Part shown: positions 4,746 through 38,730 of the stretch, piece by piece
How positions within the stretch are numbered: the stretch's first letter is position 1
Layout: every line of letters starts with the position of its first letter
Assembly: GCA_937891825.1 (NCBI GenBank)
Contig: CALAHN010000022.1
Span: forward strand, 1 to 38,733
Direction of reading: 5' to 3'
DNA length: 38,733 nt
DNA from: an uncultured Alphaproteobacteria bacterium
Lineage (GTDB): Bacteria; Pseudomonadota; Alphaproteobacteria; Bin95
Notes under the pieces: generated by a model
Seen by the model: only the letters and a program-made list of their open reading frames with translations
What the model was told of the DNA's origin: nothing
The model's database searches: none
Made by a program: the position numbers and the translations under genes

Positions 4746-5645
4746 ATGCTTGCATTCCGCGTCTGTCGAGTGCCGCCCGTGATCGCCGGCTTTGAGGATG
4801 CTATTCGAATAGCCAGGGCGTCCGGGTCGCCCATGGAGAAAGCAGCGGCGGCGCTCGACCCCGTGCGCTATGGCCTGTTCTGCGCCACATATGCCTCGAT
4901 GCGCGTGATCGACGATTTTGTCGATGACGAATTCTTGGCGCAGCCGGCCCCGCGCCGCGCCGCGGACCGGCCGTCGGCGCGCGCTGTCGTCGAAGGCTGG
5001 CGGACGGGCGCTATGGCGGCCCTGACCACGGGCGCCGCCCCCGCCAAAGGCGACCGGTTCCAGGCGACCCTGGCCGCGCTGGCGGCATGCCATGGCGTGG
5101 CGGTCCTCGATCCAGCGCCCTGGGACAAGCTCGCCGGCGCCATGCAGCGGGATATCGACGAGCGGCCGATGCCCGATTGGACAGCCTTCCTGGACTACGC
5201 CGAGGGCGCGACGGCCGCGCCGGCCGCCGTTTTCATAGAAATCCTGGCGCTCCGGCCAGCGGCTGGCGGACGGTTGGCGAGCGCCCTGGAGGGACCCGCA
5301 GTCGCGCGCATCCGGAATGCGGCGATCCTGCTCTACCTCGTGCACATCATGCGCGATCTCGCGAAGGACGCGGCGAAAGGCGCGGTGCTGCTGACCCTGC
5401 CGGAAAGCCTGTTTCAGGAAATCGGCGCCGACGCCACCAGCTTCGTCGCCCGCGCGGCGGCCGAGCCGGCGCTCGTCGCCGACGTCCGCGCGCGGGTCGC
5501 GGACTATGCCGGCCGGTTCCTGCTGCCGGCGCTTGGCGAGTTGACCGCGCTCGACGCCGTTCTGGCCCCCGGCGACAGCGCGATTTTGCGCGGCCTCTGC
5601 GAACCCTATATCGAGCGCTATGAAACATTCGCCGCCGGCCTCTGA
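4746..5645 (+). CDS. Squalene/phytoene synthase family protein with intact Asp-rich motifs
   Basis: A 299-residue all-alpha class I prenyl synthase fold. The first Asp-rich motif, DDFVDD, is at residues 56-61, preceded by YASMRVI. The second, RDLAKD, is at about residue 203 in the context YLVHIMRDLAKDAAKGAVLL. Both are the Mg-diphosphate binding sites of head-to-head synthases, so this member may be catalytically active, condensing prenyl diphosphates to a squalene- or phytoene-like product. No hopanoid or carotenoid genes are nearby, so the product is unknown. The first 29 residues are poorly conserved, and translation could begin at Met30 (4833). The gene overlaps the next one, which has the same fold, by 26 bases, which implies translational coupling and perhaps a heteromeric complex. 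Confidence 0.75.
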   Translation: MLAFRVCRVPPVIAGFEDAIRIARASGSPMEKAAAALDPVRYGLFCATYASMRVIDDFVDDEFLAQPAPRRAADRPSARAVVEGWRTGAMAALTTGAAPAKGDRFQATLAALAACHGVAVLDPAPWDKLAGAMQRDIDERPMPDWTAFLDYAEGATAAPAAVFIEILALRPAAGGRLASALEGPAVARIRNAAILLYLVHIMRDLAKDAAKGAVLLTLPESLFQEIGADATSFVARAAAEPALVADVRARVADYAGRFLLPALGELTALDAVLAPGDSAILRGLCEPYIERYETFAAGL

Positions 5646-6384
5646 CGCCCAGTATTGCGAGGACACGGTCCGCGCCCAGGATAGCGACCGCTATCTGATC
5701 GCGTTCTTCCAGCAGCGCCGCCTCCGGCAGGCGTCGGTGGCGCTCGCTGCCTGGAACCTGGAACTGGCGCGGGCCCGGCCGCGCTCGGGCGAGACGGCCA
5801 TAGGCCTGATGCGCCTGCAATGGCACCGAGAAGCGCTGCAAGAAATCCGCGAGGGCCGCGCCCGCCGTCATCCGGTCATCGGCGAACTGGCGGCGGCCCA
5901 TGCCGCCAGGCTGGTGGATCTGGACCACCTGGAGGGCATAGTCGACGCGCGGGAGCGGGACCTGGACCCAGCGCCCGCCGCTAATCTGGACGATCTCGAA
6001 GCCTATGCCAGGGCGACCGCGGGGGCCCTGAACGCCGCCCTGTGGCAGGGAACGCCGGCGGCGGCGGCGGCGGCGGACGCGGGCACGGCCTTCGCGCTGA
6101 TCGGCCTGATGCGGTCAGAACCGATCAACCAGGCGGCCGGGCGGCCCTGGGCGCCGAAGTCGCTTCGCGGCGGCCTGAGGCCTATTGTCGAGCGCGCGGC
6201 GGACCTGGCCAGGGTCAAGGCCGTGCCGGGGCATCGCGGCGCCGTCGCGCCCGCCATCCTGGCGGCCGGGTATGTGGAGCGGGCGCGCGCCGTCGGCTCC
6301 GATCCCCAGCACCCGATCATGGTTTCGGTCGATCCCGGCCGCATGTGGCGCCTCGCCAAGGCGCGGCTTTTGGGGCGCTTGTAG
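5620..6384 (+). CDS. NDUFAF6-like squalene/phytoene synthase-fold protein without Asp-rich motifs
   Basis: A 254-residue protein starting YCEDTVRAQDSDRYL after a short leader. Motifs match the NDUFAF6 branch of the squalene/phytoene synthase fold: NLELARAR where the first Asp-rich motif would be, then GLMRLQWHREAL, DAREREL-type helix residues (VDARERDLD) and ALIGLMRSEP. The DDxxD-type motifs needed for prenyl-diphosphate chemistry are missing, so it is probably not a synthase. In mitochondria NDUFAF6 is a complex I assembly factor; a similar role in bacteria is only inference. The start codon lies inside the 3' end of the upstream gene (26-base overlap). An Ala-rich stretch (GTPAAAAAADAG) interrupts the middle of the fold. 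The length is slightly short for the family. Confidence 0.75.
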   Translation: MKHSPPASDAQYCEDTVRAQDSDRYLIAFFQQRRLRQASVALAAWNLELARARPRSGETAIGLMRLQWHREALQEIREGRARRHPVIGELAAAHAARLVDLDHLEGIVDARERDLDPAPAANLDDLEAYARATAGALNAALWQGTPAAAAAADAGTAFALIGLMRSEPINQAAGRPWAPKSLRGGLRPIVERAADLARVKAVPGHRGAVAPAILAAGYVERARAVGSDPQHPIMVSVDPGRMWRLAKARLLGRL

Positions 6385-33486: not shown

Positions 33487-33495
33487 ACCCGTCAT

Positions 33496-33909
33496 TCAGG
33501 CCATAGCCATTCTGCCAAAGGGCGCGGCGAGCTGGGACCGCAAGCGTGACGACCAGGACACGAATGCGCTGTGCAGCAACGGCTTCCGGAAAAGCTCGAC
33601 ATTCTCGGCGCCGGACAGTTGGGCTTCGATCGGCCGCGTCGAACCGGCCGTGCAGAGCAGGCAGGGGGTATCCATATTCGGCCCGGCCTGACGAATCTGG
33701 TGGATCGCCTCCAGACCGTTCAGGTGCGGCATGTTGAAGTCGAAGATCATCGCGTCGAAGCGCTCGACCCGGGCCTGCTGGACCGCGGCCGCGCCATCGA
33801 ACACGGAGATTGCCGACCAGTTGTGGCTTTGGACGTACGCAAGCATCAGCGATCGGTCGAGAACACTATCGTCGGCGATCAGGAAATTCAGATGATCGGA
33901 TGCTGACAT
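33496..33909 (-). CDS. Single-domain response regulator (REC), first of two
   Basis: A 137-residue stand-alone receiver domain. The acidic pocket is Asp13/Asp14 (LIADDSVLDR), the phosphoacceptor is Asp57 (MIFDFNMPHLNG), the switch Thr is Thr87 (CTAGST) and the conserved Lys is Lys109 (LFRKPL). No DNA-binding or output domain is attached, so it acts by protein contact or phosphorelay. The start MSASDHLNF at 33909 has AAAGGA at good spacing; a longer frame reaching 34104 is not REC-like and runs through the promoter area. It is divergent from the sensor kinase with a 420-base control region, from which both appear to be expressed through operators of the same type. Confidence 0.88.
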   Translation of the reverse strand: MSASDHLNFLIADDSVLDRSLMLAYVQSHNWSAISVFDGAAAVQQARVERFDAMIFDFNMPHLNGLEAIHQIRQAGPNMDTPCLLCTAGSTRPIEAQLSGAENVELFRKPLLHSAFVSWSSRLRSQLAAPFGRMAMA

Positions 33910-33979
33910 GTTAAAGGTCCTTTCGCGCTGACAGGCGGGCGACTGCGCGCATGCGACGGCTGCCGTGGGGCAGACGATT

Positions 33980-34019
33980 AGAGCAAGGCGTGTCCAAGGG
34001 GACGCGACGGCCGCGCTCT
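33980..34019. repeat. Dispersed 40 bp palindromic repeat, copy 2 (AGAGC...GCTCT family)
   Basis: The length and design match the copy at 13636-13675: AGAGC at 33980-33984, an inner stem GCGTGTCC/GGACGCG with one G.U pair around an AAGG loop, and GCTCT at 34015-34019. It lies in the leader of the first response regulator gene. The two copies share most positions, and the loop has changed from GGGC to AAGG. Confidence 0.72.
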
Positions 34020-34092
34020 GATTGAATGACAGTGATCGGCCCGCCTTTCGGGCGAATTGGCCGAAGGGCGGGGAGAAACGCTCGAGTTTTGT

Positions 34093-34103
34093 TGTTGCCA
34101 ACA
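34093..34103 (-). promoter_or_regulatory. Operator 1, TGTTGCCAACA, at the response regulator promoter
   Basis: An 11-bp near-palindrome (TGTT/AACA arms). On the minus strand it reads TGTTGGCAACA and directly follows the -10-like CTTAAG at 34109-34104, so it would cover the transcription start of the response regulator gene. It is the mirror image of operator 2. Confidence 0.6.
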
Positions 34104-34124
34104 CTTAAGTTTTAAGCAGGTAGC

Positions 34125-34134
34125 ATTAGGCTTA
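34125..34134 (-). repeat. Shared TAAGCCTAAT motif, copy 1
   Basis: On the minus strand the sequence is TAAGCCTAAT, lying between the two operators of the divergent region. The same 10-mer occurs on the plus strand at 36688-36697 upstream of the MarR gene. It may be a second binding site shared by the promoters. Confidence 0.4.
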
Positions 34135-34136
34135 AT

Positions 34137-34147
34137 TGTTGGCAACA
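34137..34147 (+). promoter_or_regulatory. Operator 2, TGTTGGCAACA, at the sensor kinase promoter
   Basis: An 11-bp near-palindrome directly after the -10-like CTTAAT (34131-34136) on the plus strand, so it would cover the start of transcription of the kinase gene. It is the reverse complement of operator 1, and its core differs from operator 3 only in the GGC/GCC centre. Confidence 0.6.
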
Positions 34148-34316
34148 CCAAAATGCGGTCGCTGTAAAAAATTTTTGCCCGGTTCGGGGAGACGCGGGCG
34201 CCTTCCCGCCCTGCGATCTCTCGCATACGTTCAACTCTTTCGCGAAGACCGCGCCGGCAGGCTCGCAGGCAATTCGCGTCCAGGCAGACGCGTTGGTCGT
34301 GATCTACCTGGTTGAG

Positions 34317-34323
34317 AAGGAGG
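34317..34323 (+). promoter_or_regulatory. Ribosome binding site that decides the kinase start
   Basis: A near-perfect AAGGAGG lies at 34317-34323. The ATG at 34324 is directly attached and too close; the ATG at 34330 has the ideal six-base spacing. The start is therefore set at 34330. Confidence 0.75.
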
Positions 34324-34329
34324 ATGCAG

Positions 34330-36657
34330 ATGGGCGACCCGCCTGAACACGCGCTTCCCGCTGGCGTTGACAGCCTGTTAGAGCATGAAATCCTGAAAGC
34401 CGCGCTCGATGCGGCCGAGGTCGGCTACGCATTCGAAAACTGTCAGTCGGGCGCAATCACGGTTTCGCGGGTGTTTCAGAAAATGTTGGGCATGGCGGAG
34501 GATACGTTCGTCACGTCGATCGAGACGTTGGCGGCGTTGGCGGCGTTGGCGATAGAGGTCGATGGCCCCGACCTGGCGTCGGCTCGGGCAATGGCGGTCG
34601 AATCCGGCCAGCGCCACACCCTGAACGCGCGGATACGCTGTGCTGACGGCCTATCCACGATCCTGCTGCGCATCGCTGTCCGACCGGTTCGCGGTCCTTC
34701 GGGGGATATCGCCTCAATCGTCTACTTTGCCTGGGATGTCACGGAATCGCCCGAACTGCGGGCTGCATTGACGCGGGAGCGCTTTGCCTATCAGCAAGCG
34801 CAGAAATTGGCGCGGGTCGGGCACTTTGTCGTCGATGCCGAAAGCGGCGAGGTGCTGACGTCGCCAGTTCTGGCCGAGCTTCTCGGTCTGGAGCCGGCCG
34901 ACGGGCCGATCGCGATGGACGATATTCTGAAGCGCGTGATGACGCCGGAAGAAATCGCCGAGAGCGGCCGACGTCGCGACACGTTGATGGCGACCGAGGA
35001 GGCCTATGATGTCGAGGTCGATATCCATGCGGCCGACAGCGGCGAAAGCAGGATCCTGGCTGTCCGGATGGAGCCGATCTTCAACGAGACGGGCGCGATC
35101 TCCGAACGCATCGGGGTCGCCCAGGATATCACGCGCTTCCGCCAGGCCGAACGCGAACTGGCGGACCGCGAGTCGATGTTGCTGCGGGCCGAACGGATGG
35201 GGCAGCTTGGCCATTTCCGAAATGATTTCGCCCGGCGGGAGTTGCATCTATCGCCCATGATCTACGAGATGTTCGGTTTGGAGGCAGGCGTCGACGAGGA
35301 CCGTCTCGGCACATACCGCCTGGCGTCGGTATTGCCGGCGGCCGTGATCGCGGAGTTCGAAGCAAACGGCAAGGCGGCGGTCGCCGAGCGGGCTTCCGGA
35401 TACGGCCATACGTTACGGTTTGTGCGTCGACGCGACGGTTCGCAACGTGTGGTTCATGTTGAAACGACCTTCGACTACGAGAACGACAAGCTCGTCGCAG
35501 CTTTCGGCCTGGCGCGCGACGTCACCGAGATCGCGCACTATCAGAGCGTGCTTGAGTTTCGCGAGCAATTCTACGCGCAAGCCCAGAAAATCGCGCAGCT
35601 CGCGCACTGGCGTTACGATTATACGTCCAGGGAAACCCTCTGGTCCGATGGCATGTACGCGATTTTGGGCCTGGCGAACGCCCACGATGACCTGACCGGA
35701 CTGGAGCGCTTGACGCTGGTTCTTGGCGCAAGGGAAAGCGCGCGGTTTTCGGCCGGGTTGGCGAACACGCTCAAGCAACGGGTCCCGAGCTTCACCATGC
35801 AGGTGTCGGTCCTGCGCCAGACCGACGGCGCGCGCCGCGAAATCCGGATTGAGGCGACGGTTGAATATGATGCATCCGGGCGCGCGCTGGTAATTTTCGG
35901 CATTATCCAGGATATCACGGACCAGTTGGCCGCCGGGCGCGAGCGGCGGCGGCTGCAAAAGATCGTCGCCGATGCGAACCGGTCCGAATCGCTGAATTTC
36001 TTTGCGGGCGGCCTCGCCCATGAATTGTCGAACATGCTGCAGCCGGCCTTGTCGTTCGGCGACCTGACCGAACAAGCCATCAAGCGCGGCGATGACGATA
36101 AGGCCTTGCAGTACCTGACCAGCGTCCTGGCGGCGATCGATCGCGCGAGGACGCTCACCCGGCAGATGCTGGGGTTTGTGGCGCTGCCGCCGGACGATGT
36201 CGCGCCCATTCCGGTGGCTGAGGCGCTAAGCCCGGCGCGGGCGATTCTCGGCGTGGTGGCGCGGACGATCACCTGGACCGTGCCGGATGCGGTGGCGACG
36301 GTCGCGGTAACAGCGGACTCGACCGGCTTGATGCAGATCCTGCTGAACATCGTGCGCAATGCCATCAACGCCGGCGGCGAGGCGACGGCCATCGATATTC
36401 GCGTCGCCGCCCTGGACGCCGAGGCCGGCAAACCGGCGATGATCGCCATCAGCGTGACCGATGACGGACCTGGCATCGAACCCGACGACCTTGTGAAGAT
36501 CTTCGAGCCGCGCTTCACCCGCCGCGCCGCGCATTACAGCGCCGGTCTCGGTTTGCCGATCGCCCGCAGCATCGCGGAACGCTGGGGCGGCGGGTTGGAC
36601 GCTGAAAGCGCCCCTGGCCAGGGCGCCACGTTCCATATCCGCCTTTGCGTCGCTTAA
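34330..36657 (+). CDS. PAS-repeat sensor histidine kinase
   Basis: A 775-residue cytosolic sensor kinase with no membrane helices. Four PAS domains are seen at about 20-140, 150-270, 285-402 and 415-532, three of which open with related helices (AQKLARVGHF, AERMGQLGHF, AQKIAQLAHW), showing internal duplication. The dimerisation domain has phosphoacceptor His564 in GGLAHELSNMLQP. The ATP-binding domain has the N box NIVRNAINAGG (Asn677), G1 DDGPGI (711-716), and G2 GLGLPIA (739-745). It should phosphorylate one or both neighbouring single-domain regulators. Signals could be redox, light or small ligands; no cofactor residue could be assigned. Downstream, after an AT-rich gap, lies the MarR gene. 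Confidence 0.9.
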   Translation: MGDPPEHALPAGVDSLLEHEILKAALDAAEVGYAFENCQSGAITVSRVFQKMLGMAEDTFVTSIETLAALAALAIEVDGPDLASARAMAVESGQRHTLNARIRCADGLSTILLRIAVRPVRGPSGDIASIVYFAWDVTESPELRAALTRERFAYQQAQKLARVGHFVVDAESGEVLTSPVLAELLGLEPADGPIAMDDILKRVMTPEEIAESGRRRDTLMATEEAYDVEVDIHAADSGESRILAVRMEPIFNETGAISERIGVAQDITRFRQAERELADRESMLLRAERMGQLGHFRNDFARRELHLSPMIYEMFGLEAGVDEDRLGTYRLASVLPAAVIAEFEANGKAAVAERASGYGHTLRFVRRRDGSQRVVHVETTFDYENDKLVAAFGLARDVTEIAHYQSVLEFREQFYAQAQKIAQLAHWRYDYTSRETLWSDGMYAILGLANAHDDLTGLERLTLVLGARESARFSAGLANTLKQRVPSFTMQVSVLRQTDGARREIRIEATVEYDASGRALVIFGIIQDITDQLAAGRERRRLQKIVADANRSESLNFFAGGLAHELSNMLQPALSFGDLTEQAIKRGDDDKALQYLTSVLAAIDRARTLTRQMLGFVALPPDDVAPIPVAEALSPARAILGVVARTITWTVPDAVATVAVTADSTGLMQILLNIVRNAINAGGEATAIDIRVAALDAEAGKPAMIAISVTDDGPGIEPDDLVKIFEPRFTRRAAHYSAGLGLPIARSIAERWGGGLDAESAPGQGATFHIRLCVA

Positions 36658-36661
36658 CTGT

Positions 36662-36672
36662 TGAATATAAGT
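36662..36672 (+). repeat. TGAATATAAGT direct repeat, copy 1
   Basis: The 11-mer TGAATATAAGT lies just after the kinase stop codon and recurs at 36753-36763, where it forms the -10 region of the MarR promoter. Ninety-one bases separate the copies. The first may be a decoy or a second start site. Confidence 0.4.
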
Positions 36673-36687
36673 AGAGATTTTTTGGAC

Positions 36688-36697
36688 TAAGCCTAAT
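36688..36697 (+). repeat. Shared TAAGCCTAAT motif, copy 2
   Basis: TAAGCCTAAT is identical to the minus-strand copy at 34125-34134. It forms one side of an inverted repeat, TAAGCC (36688-36693) with GGCTTA (36711-36716), in the AT-rich upstream region of the MarR gene. Confidence 0.4.
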
Positions 36698-36732
36698 TTT
36701 TAAGCAATTTGGCTTACTGCCTCAAATTTAGC

Positions 36733-36762
36733 TTGCGTTCATGGGCGCTTGCTGAATATAAG
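36733..36762 (+). promoter_or_regulatory. Probable promoter of the MarR-type gene
   Basis: TTGCGT (36733-36738), an 18-base spacer and TATAAG (36757-36762) form a reasonable sigma-70 promoter in an AT-rich patch. Transcription would start near 36769, inside operator 3, giving a leader of only about 13 bases to the ATG at 36782. Confidence 0.55.
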
Positions 36763-36773
36763 TGTTGCCAACA
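36763..36773 (+). promoter_or_regulatory. Operator 3, TGTTGCCAACA, in front of the MarR-type gene
   Basis: An 11-bp near-palindrome directly abutting the TATAAG -10 box and ending eight bases before the ATG at 36782. This is the classic position for autorepression. It shares the whole TGTTG-CAACA frame with operators 1 and 2. Confidence 0.65.
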
Positions 36774-36781
36774 ATAAATCT

Positions 36782-37222
36782 ATGGCTTTCAAAATGCCCG
36801 ATCATTCCCGTCACGCCATGGGCGTCGCCGCCCTGTTCGAACAGATCGCGCGTGCGATCTATGAAGAGCGCGGTCCGAAAACCCTGCAGCCTGGACAATG
36901 GCCGTCGCTGCGCTATTTCCACCGGGCAGGGCCGCGCGCCCGTAATGTCTCGGGCTTGGCCAAATATCTCGGCGTGACGCTTGGCACGGCAAGCCGTTCC
37001 GCCGCGGCATTGGCGCGTCGTGGCTTGATTGTCGCGCGTCCGAACCCCGAAGACGGGCGCGGCGTGGTCTATGATCTCAGCGCGGCCGGGGAAGCGGCAT
37101 TGGCGGACGATCCGCTGCAACGTCTTGCCGGCGCGATCGCGGCGATCGAGCCGGTCGAACAGAAAGTCTTCCGTGACGCAGTGCTTGCGCTGGCCGAAAC
37201 CCTTGGCGCTGGACAGGAGTAG
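36782..37222 (+). CDS. MarR-type winged helix-turn-helix regulator
   Basis: A 146-residue transcription regulator. The helix-turn-helix is NVSGLAKYLGVTLGTASRSAAALARRGLIVAR-like (recognition helix around GTASRSAAALAR), followed by the wing PNPEDGRGVVYDLSAAGEAAL, as in MarR proteins. N- and C-terminal helices (AALFEQIARAIYEE and VEQKVFRDAVLALAETL) would form the dimer interface. Two starts are possible, 36782 and 36794, neither with a good ribosome site; the short leader suggests leaderless-like initiation. It most likely binds the three TGTTGSCAACA sites, repressing itself, the kinase and the first response regulator; this is inference from site position. The second response regulator follows after eight bases. 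Confidence 0.85.
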   Translation: MAFKMPDHSRHAMGVAALFEQIARAIYEERGPKTLQPGQWPSLRYFHRAGPRARNVSGLAKYLGVTLGTASRSAAALARRGLIVARPNPEDGRGVVYDLSAAGEAALADDPLQRLAGAIAAIEPVEQKVFRDAVLALAETLGAGQE

Positions 37223-37230
37223 ACTTTCCC

Positions 37231-37638
37231 ATGGCCCATATCCTGCTTGTGGATGACGACGAGTTCGTGCGCGCCGGCCTGGCGGCGGTTTTGGCCGGCG
37301 CCGGCCATATGACGGCCGAGGCCAGCTCGATCATGGCGGCCGAAACGGTTCTCGCCGAGGCCGGCGACGAATTCGACATCGTGTTGCTCGACCTCTGGCT
37401 GCCCGACGGCAGCGGCCTTGGCTTGCTCGATCGGCTGATGGCTTCGAGGCCGCATCTTCCTGTCGTCGTCATGTCGGGCGGCGGCCCCGGCCGATCGCTG
37501 GAGCAGGCGCTGGCCGTCGCGGACGCGACCGGCGCGGCGGCGACGATCATCAAGCCCTTTCAGAACGCGGAATTGATCGAAGCTGTGGAAGCGGTCTTGC
37601 AAAAACGGTCGCAGGTTCAGGACGCCGACGACGACTGA
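37231..37638 (+). CDS. Single-domain response regulator (REC), second of two
   Basis: A 135-residue receiver domain with an acidic pocket (LLVDDDEFVRAG, Asp8-Asp10), phosphoacceptor Asp54 (LLDLWLPDGSG), Ser82 in the switch position (MSGGGPG) and Lys108 (IIKPF). There is no output domain; the C-terminus ends in a short acidic tail. Its ribosome site AGGAG lies within the end of the MarR gene, so both are one transcription unit. Together with the first regulator it gives two candidate partners for one kinase. It converges on the TIM-barrel gene with a 24-base gap and no visible terminator. Confidence 0.88.
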   Translation: MAHILLVDDDEFVRAGLAAVLAGAGHMTAEASSIMAAETVLAEAGDEFDIVLLDLWLPDGSGLGLLDRLMASRPHLPVVVMSGGGPGRSLEQALAVADATGAAATIIKPFQNAELIEAVEAVLQKRSQVQDADDD

Positions 37639-37662
37639 TCCAGGCGGAACGCGCGCATTGCC

Positions 37663-38649
37663 TCATAGGCCGAGGGCGCTTGCTTCGCCGCGCATCCAGC
37701 CGACGCAGGCGACGGCCTGTTCCAGCAAGGAATAGCCGCATCCCATGCCGTAGTCCGGGCCGGGAATGAACTCTGTCGAGATCTGGCCAAGCTTTGCGCC
37801 TACGTCTTTGGACCGATGCCGCAACAGGATGCGCAGGCCTTCCTTCCAGGGCTCCAGCAAGGCTGCATCGAAAGGCGCGTGGTAGGCGCCGGGCTTCGGT
37901 TCGACGAACGGATACTGAATGCCCCGGCCGACTTTGCCGTCCGGGTGGCTGCCTGCCGTATTCTTCGGGTTGTTCGGAACGGCCGCGCGGGCATGGGCAT
38001 GGCGGACCCAGCCGGCCGCGACCCATTCCTCGATCACGTTTCCCGGCTTGAACGGGTCGAGCACGAGAGCGCCGCTTCTGACCTTGGCGGCGGTATCGAA
38101 GATCGCCTGTTCTCCCGGATTGTCGATCTTGAAGATGACGTGGCTATGGTCGAGCGTCATGTTGAATTCCACGCCCCGCGCTTCGACCATGCGGGCGACC
38201 TTGGCGACGCGCGGAAAATCTTCCGACCACATGTTCACATGCACCTCGAAGCAAGGCATGCAGCCTGCTTCCGCGCCGATCTCGGCGGCGCGGAGATATG
38301 CGGCCATCACCTCGTCGTCGGTCACGACATGGCCGTCGGCATGCAGCAGCTTGATCTGCACATTGTGAACCCGGGACCCGAGCTTGCCGCCGAGCTTGAG
38401 ATTATGCTCCAGCAAGGCTTCGTCCGCGCCAAGCGCATAGAACCATCCACCCGCCCGGATCGGCAGGCCATGGCGCTGGCTGAGCGCCTGAAATTCCTCG
38501 ACCTGATCGGGGTCCGGCGTCTTGTCGACATAGTCGAAACATCCGGCGTCCGCCGCCATTTGAAAGCGGGTCGCGAGGTCGGGCATCGGGTCGGCGCCGG
38601 CATGCATCAGGCCATTGGTCTGAATGCCGAACAGCAAGGGGGCGGTCAT
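37663..38649 (-). CDS. Xylose isomerase-like TIM-barrel protein
   Basis: A 328-residue protein of the sugar-phosphate isomerase/epimerase (AP_endonuc_2) superfamily. It begins MTAPLLFGIQTNGLM and has barrel strands with metal-type residues: GCFDYVDKT, LPIRAGGWFYALG, CMPCFEVHVNMWSED (Glu and His), EFNMTLDHSHVIFKI (Asp and His), and a late HAHARAAVPNNPKNTAGS region. A C-terminal segment with GMGCGYSLLEQ is not found in ordinary xylose isomerases. Such proteins isomerise sugars or hydroxyacids with divalent metals; the substrate is not known. A palindromic repeat lies upstream at 38683-38730. It is convergent to the response-regulator operon. Confidence 0.75.
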   Translation of the reverse strand: MTAPLLFGIQTNGLMHAGADPMPDLATRFQMAADAGCFDYVDKTPDPDQVEEFQALSQRHGLPIRAGGWFYALGADEALLEHNLKLGGKLGSRVHNVQIKLLHADGHVVTDDEVMAAYLRAAEIGAEAGCMPCFEVHVNMWSEDFPRVAKVARMVEARGVEFNMTLDHSHVIFKIDNPGEQAIFDTAAKVRSGALVLDPFKPGNVIEEWVAAGWVRHAHARAAVPNNPKNTAGSHPDGKVGRGIQYPFVEPKPGAYHAPFDAALLEPWKEGLRILLRHRSKDVGAKLGQISTEFIPGPDYGMGCGYSLLEQAVACVGWMRGEASALGL

Positions 38650-38682: not shown

Positions 38683-38730
38683 GATCAAACCAACCTTAGG
38701 CGGAATCGCCTAAGGTTGGATAATTTGATC
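38683..38730. repeat. Palindromic repeat with GAAT loop, copy B
   Basis: The outer arms GATCAAA (38683-38689) and TTTGATC (38724-38730) pair perfectly. The inner stem is a perfect 11 bp, AACCTTAGGCG (38692-38702) with CGCCTAAGGTT (38707-38717), around a GAAT loop. It shares the core, the TAGATCAAACC flank and TTGGATAATTTG with copy A at 16819. It lies upstream of the TIM-barrel gene at the right edge of the window. Confidence 0.88.

Follow-up and report, generated by a model that had tools for sequence, protein, structure and literature searches.

A four-gene signaling module of an uncultured alphaproteobacterium, comprising a PAS sensor histidine kinase, two stand-alone receivers (REC1 and REC2), and a MarR-family protein, is probably autoregulated. 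The MarR protein likely acts as a dimeric repressor that binds three TGTTGSCAACA palindromes and controls the module at three promoters. The module and the elements discussed below lie in a 38,733-nucleotide stretch of DNA (hereafter the window), to which all coordinates refer.

33496..33909, - strand: REC1, stand-alone receiver, divergent from the kinase gene (Response_reg 52.4 bits, cut-off 30.2)
34087..34153, no strand: inverted repeat that encloses the two divergent palindromes; arms of 23 nt (34087-34109, 34131-34153), 91% complementary, 21 nt between the arms
34093..34103, - strand: TGTTGSCAACA, exact copy, putative REC1 promoter
34104..34109, - strand: CTTAAG, -10-like hexamer of REC1 called from sequence, 3/6 vs TATAAT
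34125..34134, - strand: TAAGCCTAAT, copy in the REC1-kinase intergenic region (genome search)
34131..34136, + strand: CTTAAT, -10-like hexamer of the kinase gene called from sequence, 4/6 vs TATAAT
34137..34147, + strand: TGTTGSCAACA, exact copy, putative kinase promoter
34330..36657, + strand: PAS sensor histidine kinase, 775 aa (HATPase_c 88 bits, cut-off 26.4; PAS families over cut-off)
36688..36697, + strand: TAAGCCTAAT, copy in the marR intergenic region (genome search)
36757..36762, + strand: TATAAG, -10-like hexamer of marR called from sequence, 5/6 vs TATAAT
36763..36773, + strand: TGTTGSCAACA, exact copy, putative marR promoter, ending 8 bases 5' of the ATG
36782..37222, + strand: MarR-family protein, 146 aa, other possible start at 36794 (MarR_2 42.4 bits, cut-off 27)
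37231..37638, + strand: REC2, stand-alone receiver, 8 bases past marR (Response_reg 67.3 bits)
37663-38649, - strand: flanking TIM-barrel gene

The genes are of the types proposed in the initial annotation: REC1 and REC2 as receiver-only proteins, the kinase with its PAS and HATPase domains, and the MarR protein all scored above Pfam cut-offs. Response_reg was the only Pfam domain in REC1 and REC2, and a DNA-binding output domain was absent from both. In the kinase, for which the initial annotation gave four PAS domains, the best Pfam stretches map to three distinct regions, at residues 39-139, 199-272, and 438-529. Pfam did not report HisKA for this protein at E 1e-3, and its H-box-like GGLAHELSNML aligns with the kinase of Pelagibius, to which it is loosely similar (26% over 661 aligned columns); HisKA was reported for the kinase of another relative, L071. 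The MarR protein also matched the Pfam family MarR (28.3 bits, cut-off 24.6), and its structure predicted as a single chain (pLDDT 89.9, pTM 0.75) retrieved MarR proteins with Foldseek at TM-scores of ~0.5-0.7, the best solved one being MftR with operator DNA. The protein thus has a MarR winged-helix domain, and its predicted model shows the MarR fold, including the end helices through which such proteins dimerize.

A motif search confirmed the three palindromes and found no further copy in the window, as first reported, and shuffled versions of the window (n=100) contained a mean of 0.00 copies vs 3 in the real sequence. Extending the search to the whole 4,297,217-base genome, a check proposed in the initial annotation, revealed that these three are its only exact copies, all located in the module and within 2.7 kb. 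When one mismatch was allowed, 10 additional copies were found elsewhere, for a total of 13 places vs 6 for the reversed pattern used as a control at equal stringency, and simple arithmetic from these 10 copies yields ~0.3 exact copies expected genome-wide. All 10 near copies outside the module are crossed by a stop-free frame of >120 codons, although such frames are frequent in GC-rich DNA such as this genome. One of these near copies, in locus L032, lies ~20 bases 5' of an ATG.

All three sites are placed alike relative to a -10-like hexamer and to the gene that follows, in line with binding by MarR. The reported abutment of hexamer and palindrome in the direction of the gene held at every site; as -10 elements, TATAAG alone is a good match. 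Read in gene direction, the sites are AACTTAAG-TGTTGGCAACA-ACAAAAC for REC1, GGCTTAAT-TGTTGGCAACA-CCAAAAT for the kinase, and GAATATAAG-TGTTGCCAACA-ATAAATC for marR, with flanks that are alike yet asymmetric, which fits a putative -10 region followed by a transcript start. A consensus scan of positions 33490-37660 for sigma-70-like promoters found 0, with 1.0 expected. Given hexamers matching 3, 4, and 5 of 6 bases and this empty scan, promoters at the three sites are plausible yet putative; they may depend on an activator or on a different sigma factor, or may lie elsewhere. The palindromes of REC1 and of the kinase are each ~180 bases from the start codon, and the marR palindrome is so close to the ATG that the marR leader would be very short. 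RNA elements were considered for the ~180-base leaders and dropped, as folding z-scores were -0.18 (kinase) and -1.09 (REC1) and the window had no Rfam match.

We infer from this arrangement that a MarR dimer would bind each palindrome at the would-be transcription start, just past the -10 region, and would thereby keep transcription of REC1, of the kinase gene, and of marR-REC2 from initiating. With three operators, the module would in this way adjust its own expression. Repression would be relieved by a ligand of MarR or by oxidation, as in known MarR proteins, or else by a signal passed on from the kinase.

The 10-base element TAAGCCTAAT also occurs only in the module, with 2 copies genome-wide, one per intergenic region, although its reversed control likewise has 2. 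Some 10-mer in common between the intergenic regions was found in 368/5000 first-order resamples of the marR intergenic stretch. We consider TAAGCCTAAT a lead rather than a demonstrated element; it may be the site of a second regulator.

Close to home, the module is sporadic, since matches to its MarR and kinase are scarce. At E 1e-3, the window MarR gave no hit in four other genomes of the genus and a single weak hit (3.9e-4) in nine others of the family; for the window kinase, none of 13 other genomes, of which eight belong to the family, gave a hit at E 1e-30. The flanking TIM-barrel gene is present in 3/13 other genomes; a search of the corresponding three loci (~4 kb each) for three more genes that flank the module in the window found none. 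Upstream of the TIM-barrel gene in the window is a perfect inverted repeat (38690-38719), CCAACCTTAGGCG / CGCCTAAGGTTGG, whose arms of 13 bases are separated by 4 bases. More distant relatives were collected by scanning genome contigs with P[GVA]QW[SP][AST]LRY, a pattern biased toward the window's MarR branch, which yielded 67 loci; the resulting tree has 67 rows, i.e. the window and 66 loci, with L132 (<95 residues) omitted. In this 67-row tree the window MarR falls within a clade of 8 (support 100/100) alongside two Amylibacter (L068, L070), an alphaproteobacterium (L069), Pelagibius (L072), and three Kiloniellaceae or Denitrobaculum (L071, L073, L074). Its branch is long (0.96), and its position within the clade is unsure.

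Upstream of orthologous genes, where the initial annotation would expect the sites to recur, the exact motif is absent, but 5/7 clade relatives, representing two lineages, have two similar palindromes (TTGCTAWTARCAA type) ahead of marR, at a spacing of 46-49 bases. In L071-L074 the pair consists of TTGCTAATAGCAA and TTGCTATTAACAA with a spacing of 49 bases, and in L069 of TTGCTATTAGCAA and TTGCTATAAGCAA with a spacing of 46 bases. Among slices of 370 bases drawn at random from the loci, 77/2010 contained a comparable pair. The Pelagibius pair occupies the interval between marR and a divergently oriented receiver gene; read on the strand of this receiver gene, one palindrome comes immediately after TATCTT, which resembles the arrangement in the window. 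Across the four Kiloniellaceae/Pelagibius genomes searched, TTGCTAWTARCAA occurs at marR only, save for one extra copy in G398 located in AT-rich DNA with no evident target. Beyond the clade, four Telmatospirillum-type loci (L075, L076, L080, L083) share an invariant CTTGCAATATGCAAACA upstream of marR, which holds an imperfect palindrome.

The recurrence of these pairs also bears on whether the palindromes arose as by-products, either of promoter duplication or of a -10/start region, and bind no repressor. The upstream regions of REC1 and marR do have two elements in common, which duplication could explain. However, the kinase site carries the palindrome yet faces the opposite way, and the palindrome letters are kept between L069 and L071-L074 despite diverged flanks, so that we regard a by-product origin as very improbable. 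An observation of a different kind comes from L084, where a 59-base stretch containing TTTTGCGGCAAAA is repeated upstream of marR (32-90 and 197-255), which may reflect either operator duplication or an artifact of assembly.

Other relatives do not fit the same pattern. No TTGCTAWTARCAA-type site was found at marR in either Amylibacter, and in 11 wider relatives the 300 bases preceding marR contain no perfect palindrome of 13 bases. In Amylibacter, a single TTGCTACTAGCAA instead lies ~3 kb downstream of marR, behind a hybrid kinase gene (L068 9556-9568, L070 9528-9540) and before a short frame, a possible regulon lead; the L068 genes past this frame are presumably msrB and msrA, which they resemble. 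The joint consensus TTGYTRNYARCAA has 0 exact copies in the window's genome, as each window site misses an end letter. It occurs 4-10 times in each of the other genomes of the eight searched, and was not enriched over its reversed control in 3/8 (G000, which is the window's genome, and Amylibacter G394 and G395). With control counts of 1-13, this loose pattern is not specific.

The exact motif is found outside the module's host, with 25 copies in 13 other genomes (0-5 each, no two on one contig). Sister genomes G001-G006 contain 19 copies vs 2 for the reversed control, scattered over separate contigs, so that the motif is not rare in the family. All 16 of the 25 copies examined are crossed by a stop-free frame of >100 codons, which suggests that these copies sit in coding sequence. 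As for the possibility raised at the outset that the motif is common in unrelated promoters, the host genome has no exact copy outside the module.

A different regulator of the host genome could instead bind the three palindromes, with MarR acting elsewhere. Sister genomes that lack the window's MarR still carry TGTTGSCAACA, and the host genome encodes 11 other MarR_2 genes over cut-off. This explanation is nevertheless unlikely, as the host genome's exact sites are all in the module and similar palindromes recur upstream of marR in orthologous units. The comparison with relatives therefore favors MarR as the candidate binder, and the initial proposal that it occupies all three sites gains support from their uniqueness in the genome and from the palindrome pairs in 5/7 relatives, with binding itself still putative. 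Weighing against MarR autoregulation are the restriction of fitting relatives to two lineages, the joint consensus TTGYTRNYARCAA with its lack of exact copies in the host genome and of enrichment in 3/8 genomes, the non-fitting Amylibacter, the 11 wider relatives without a palindrome, the empty sigma-70 scan, and the motif copies in sister genomes without the module.

The initial annotation also considered this gene set unusual. The comparison does not support this, as a kinase, a stand-alone receiver, and a MarR of the window's type recur together in Alphaproteobacteria. A stand-alone receiver is encoded within 500 bases of MarR in 24/67 tree rows, including 8/8 of the window's clade, with loci truncated by contig ends scored as lacking a neighbor. 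The remaining rows have a kinase alone in reach (5/67) or neither receiver nor kinase (38/67). In 12/67 loci, marR has a convergent receiver gene, with which it overlaps by 4-26 bases. A class-wide search, in genomes that are partly those of the tree, placed a receiver beside MarR in 12/20 fetched places, namely the best 19 (G000 and G020 excluded) and one with a long frame, of 80 listed. Conversely, neither a receiver nor a HATPase was found near any of the 11 other MarR_2 genes in the host genome (0/11, ~4 kb loci), and Azospirillaceae relatives have a receiver by MarR in 2/30 loci, which indicates that this pairing is a trait of part of the window's MarR branch and not of MarR proteins at large.

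Most receivers adjoining a MarR of the window's type have in common a (S/T)GGGP...KPF stretch, and REC2 is 43% identical over 124 residues to the REC2-like receiver in the Pelagibius unit of this kind. We do not claim REC1 as an orthologue of the divergent Pelagibius receiver, as the match spans 28 residues only (E 0.002). The four Kiloniellaceae/Pelagibius loci have their divergent receiver within 500 bases of marR, and the REC2-like one is located ~3 kb off, behind the kinase. The divergent receivers of these loci (L071-L074, ~5374-5913, - strand) have lost the conserved lysine and one leading acidic residue, and may for this reason be pseudo-receivers.

This gene association raises a further possibility that would extend autoregulation, in which MarR is the detached output of a two-component system: the kinase would phosphorylate REC2, and REC2 would bind MarR and alter its grip on the palindromes. 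The counts above (24/67 rows, 8/8 in the clade, 12/20 class-wide places, and 0/11 other MarR genes of the host with a receiver or kinase nearby) are consistent with it, as are two window receivers devoid of output domains. A frame of Rhodovibrio sodomensis (L104 3239-4171) that joins PAS (42.9 bits) to a MarR relative of the window's branch points the same way, although its MarR_2 score (20.3) is under the cut-off of 27. Response regulators with a MarR output have moreover been tabulated for Azospirillum (PMC4618731). Against this, 38/67 rows have neither partner in reach, the Azospirillaceae show 2/30 loci with a receiver and no receiver-MarR fusion in 30 loci (of 37 places listed), and in Kiloniellaceae/Pelagibius the nearby receiver lacks the conserved lysine and the REC2-like one is distant. 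We therefore put this extension forward tentatively, as conceivable but rather doubtful. A separate frame of 588 residues (L196 1674-3440, - strand) comprises a MarR relative with a cysteine-rich tail and continues in frame into a stretch that resembles an NhaA antiporter.

MarR autoregulation is our preferred reading, and the recurrent pairing of MarR with stand-alone receivers, for which candidate operators are defined, is directly testable. MarR proteins are usually viewed as ligand or oxidation sensors, and for many stand-alone receivers we know of no target. If MarR were indeed a detached output, it would read a phosphorylation signal and not a small ligand only, and the kinase, receivers, and MarR would represent a recurrent alphaproteobacterial two-component system with a separate MarR repressor as its output. 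Full-text searches of open-license papers retrieved no description of a kinase-receiver-MarR module among the matches listed, and a query with the site sequences retrieved, among the matches listed, none about the module by title.

Several MarR-family repressors, including MarR, MexR, SlyA, and MftR, are autoregulated through palindromic operators. The window resembles these systems in its MarR domain and fold and in its palindromes at the putative promoters of marR itself and of divergent genes, and differs in its candidate targets, which are a sensor kinase and stand-alone receivers instead of efflux pump or enzyme genes. To our knowledge, its 13-base palindrome matches no operator of a named MarR protein. 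Ordinary two-component systems rely on DNA-binding response regulators of the OmpR, NarL, and NtrC types. The window likewise groups a histidine kinase with receivers; unlike in those systems, the receivers have no output domain, which leaves MarR as the sole DNA-binding protein of the unit. A parallel in domain content is provided by the Azospirillum response regulators with MarR output listed in Table 5 of PMC4618731, which also place a receiver and a MarR in one pathway, as a single fused protein in Azospirillum and as two separate genes in the window. Finally, the Caulobacter protein RtrC, annotated as hypothetical, is described in PMC9648850 as having a MarR-like fold and being tied to a network of two-component proteins; by that description, it resembles the window MarR in combining a MarR-like protein with a two-component link.
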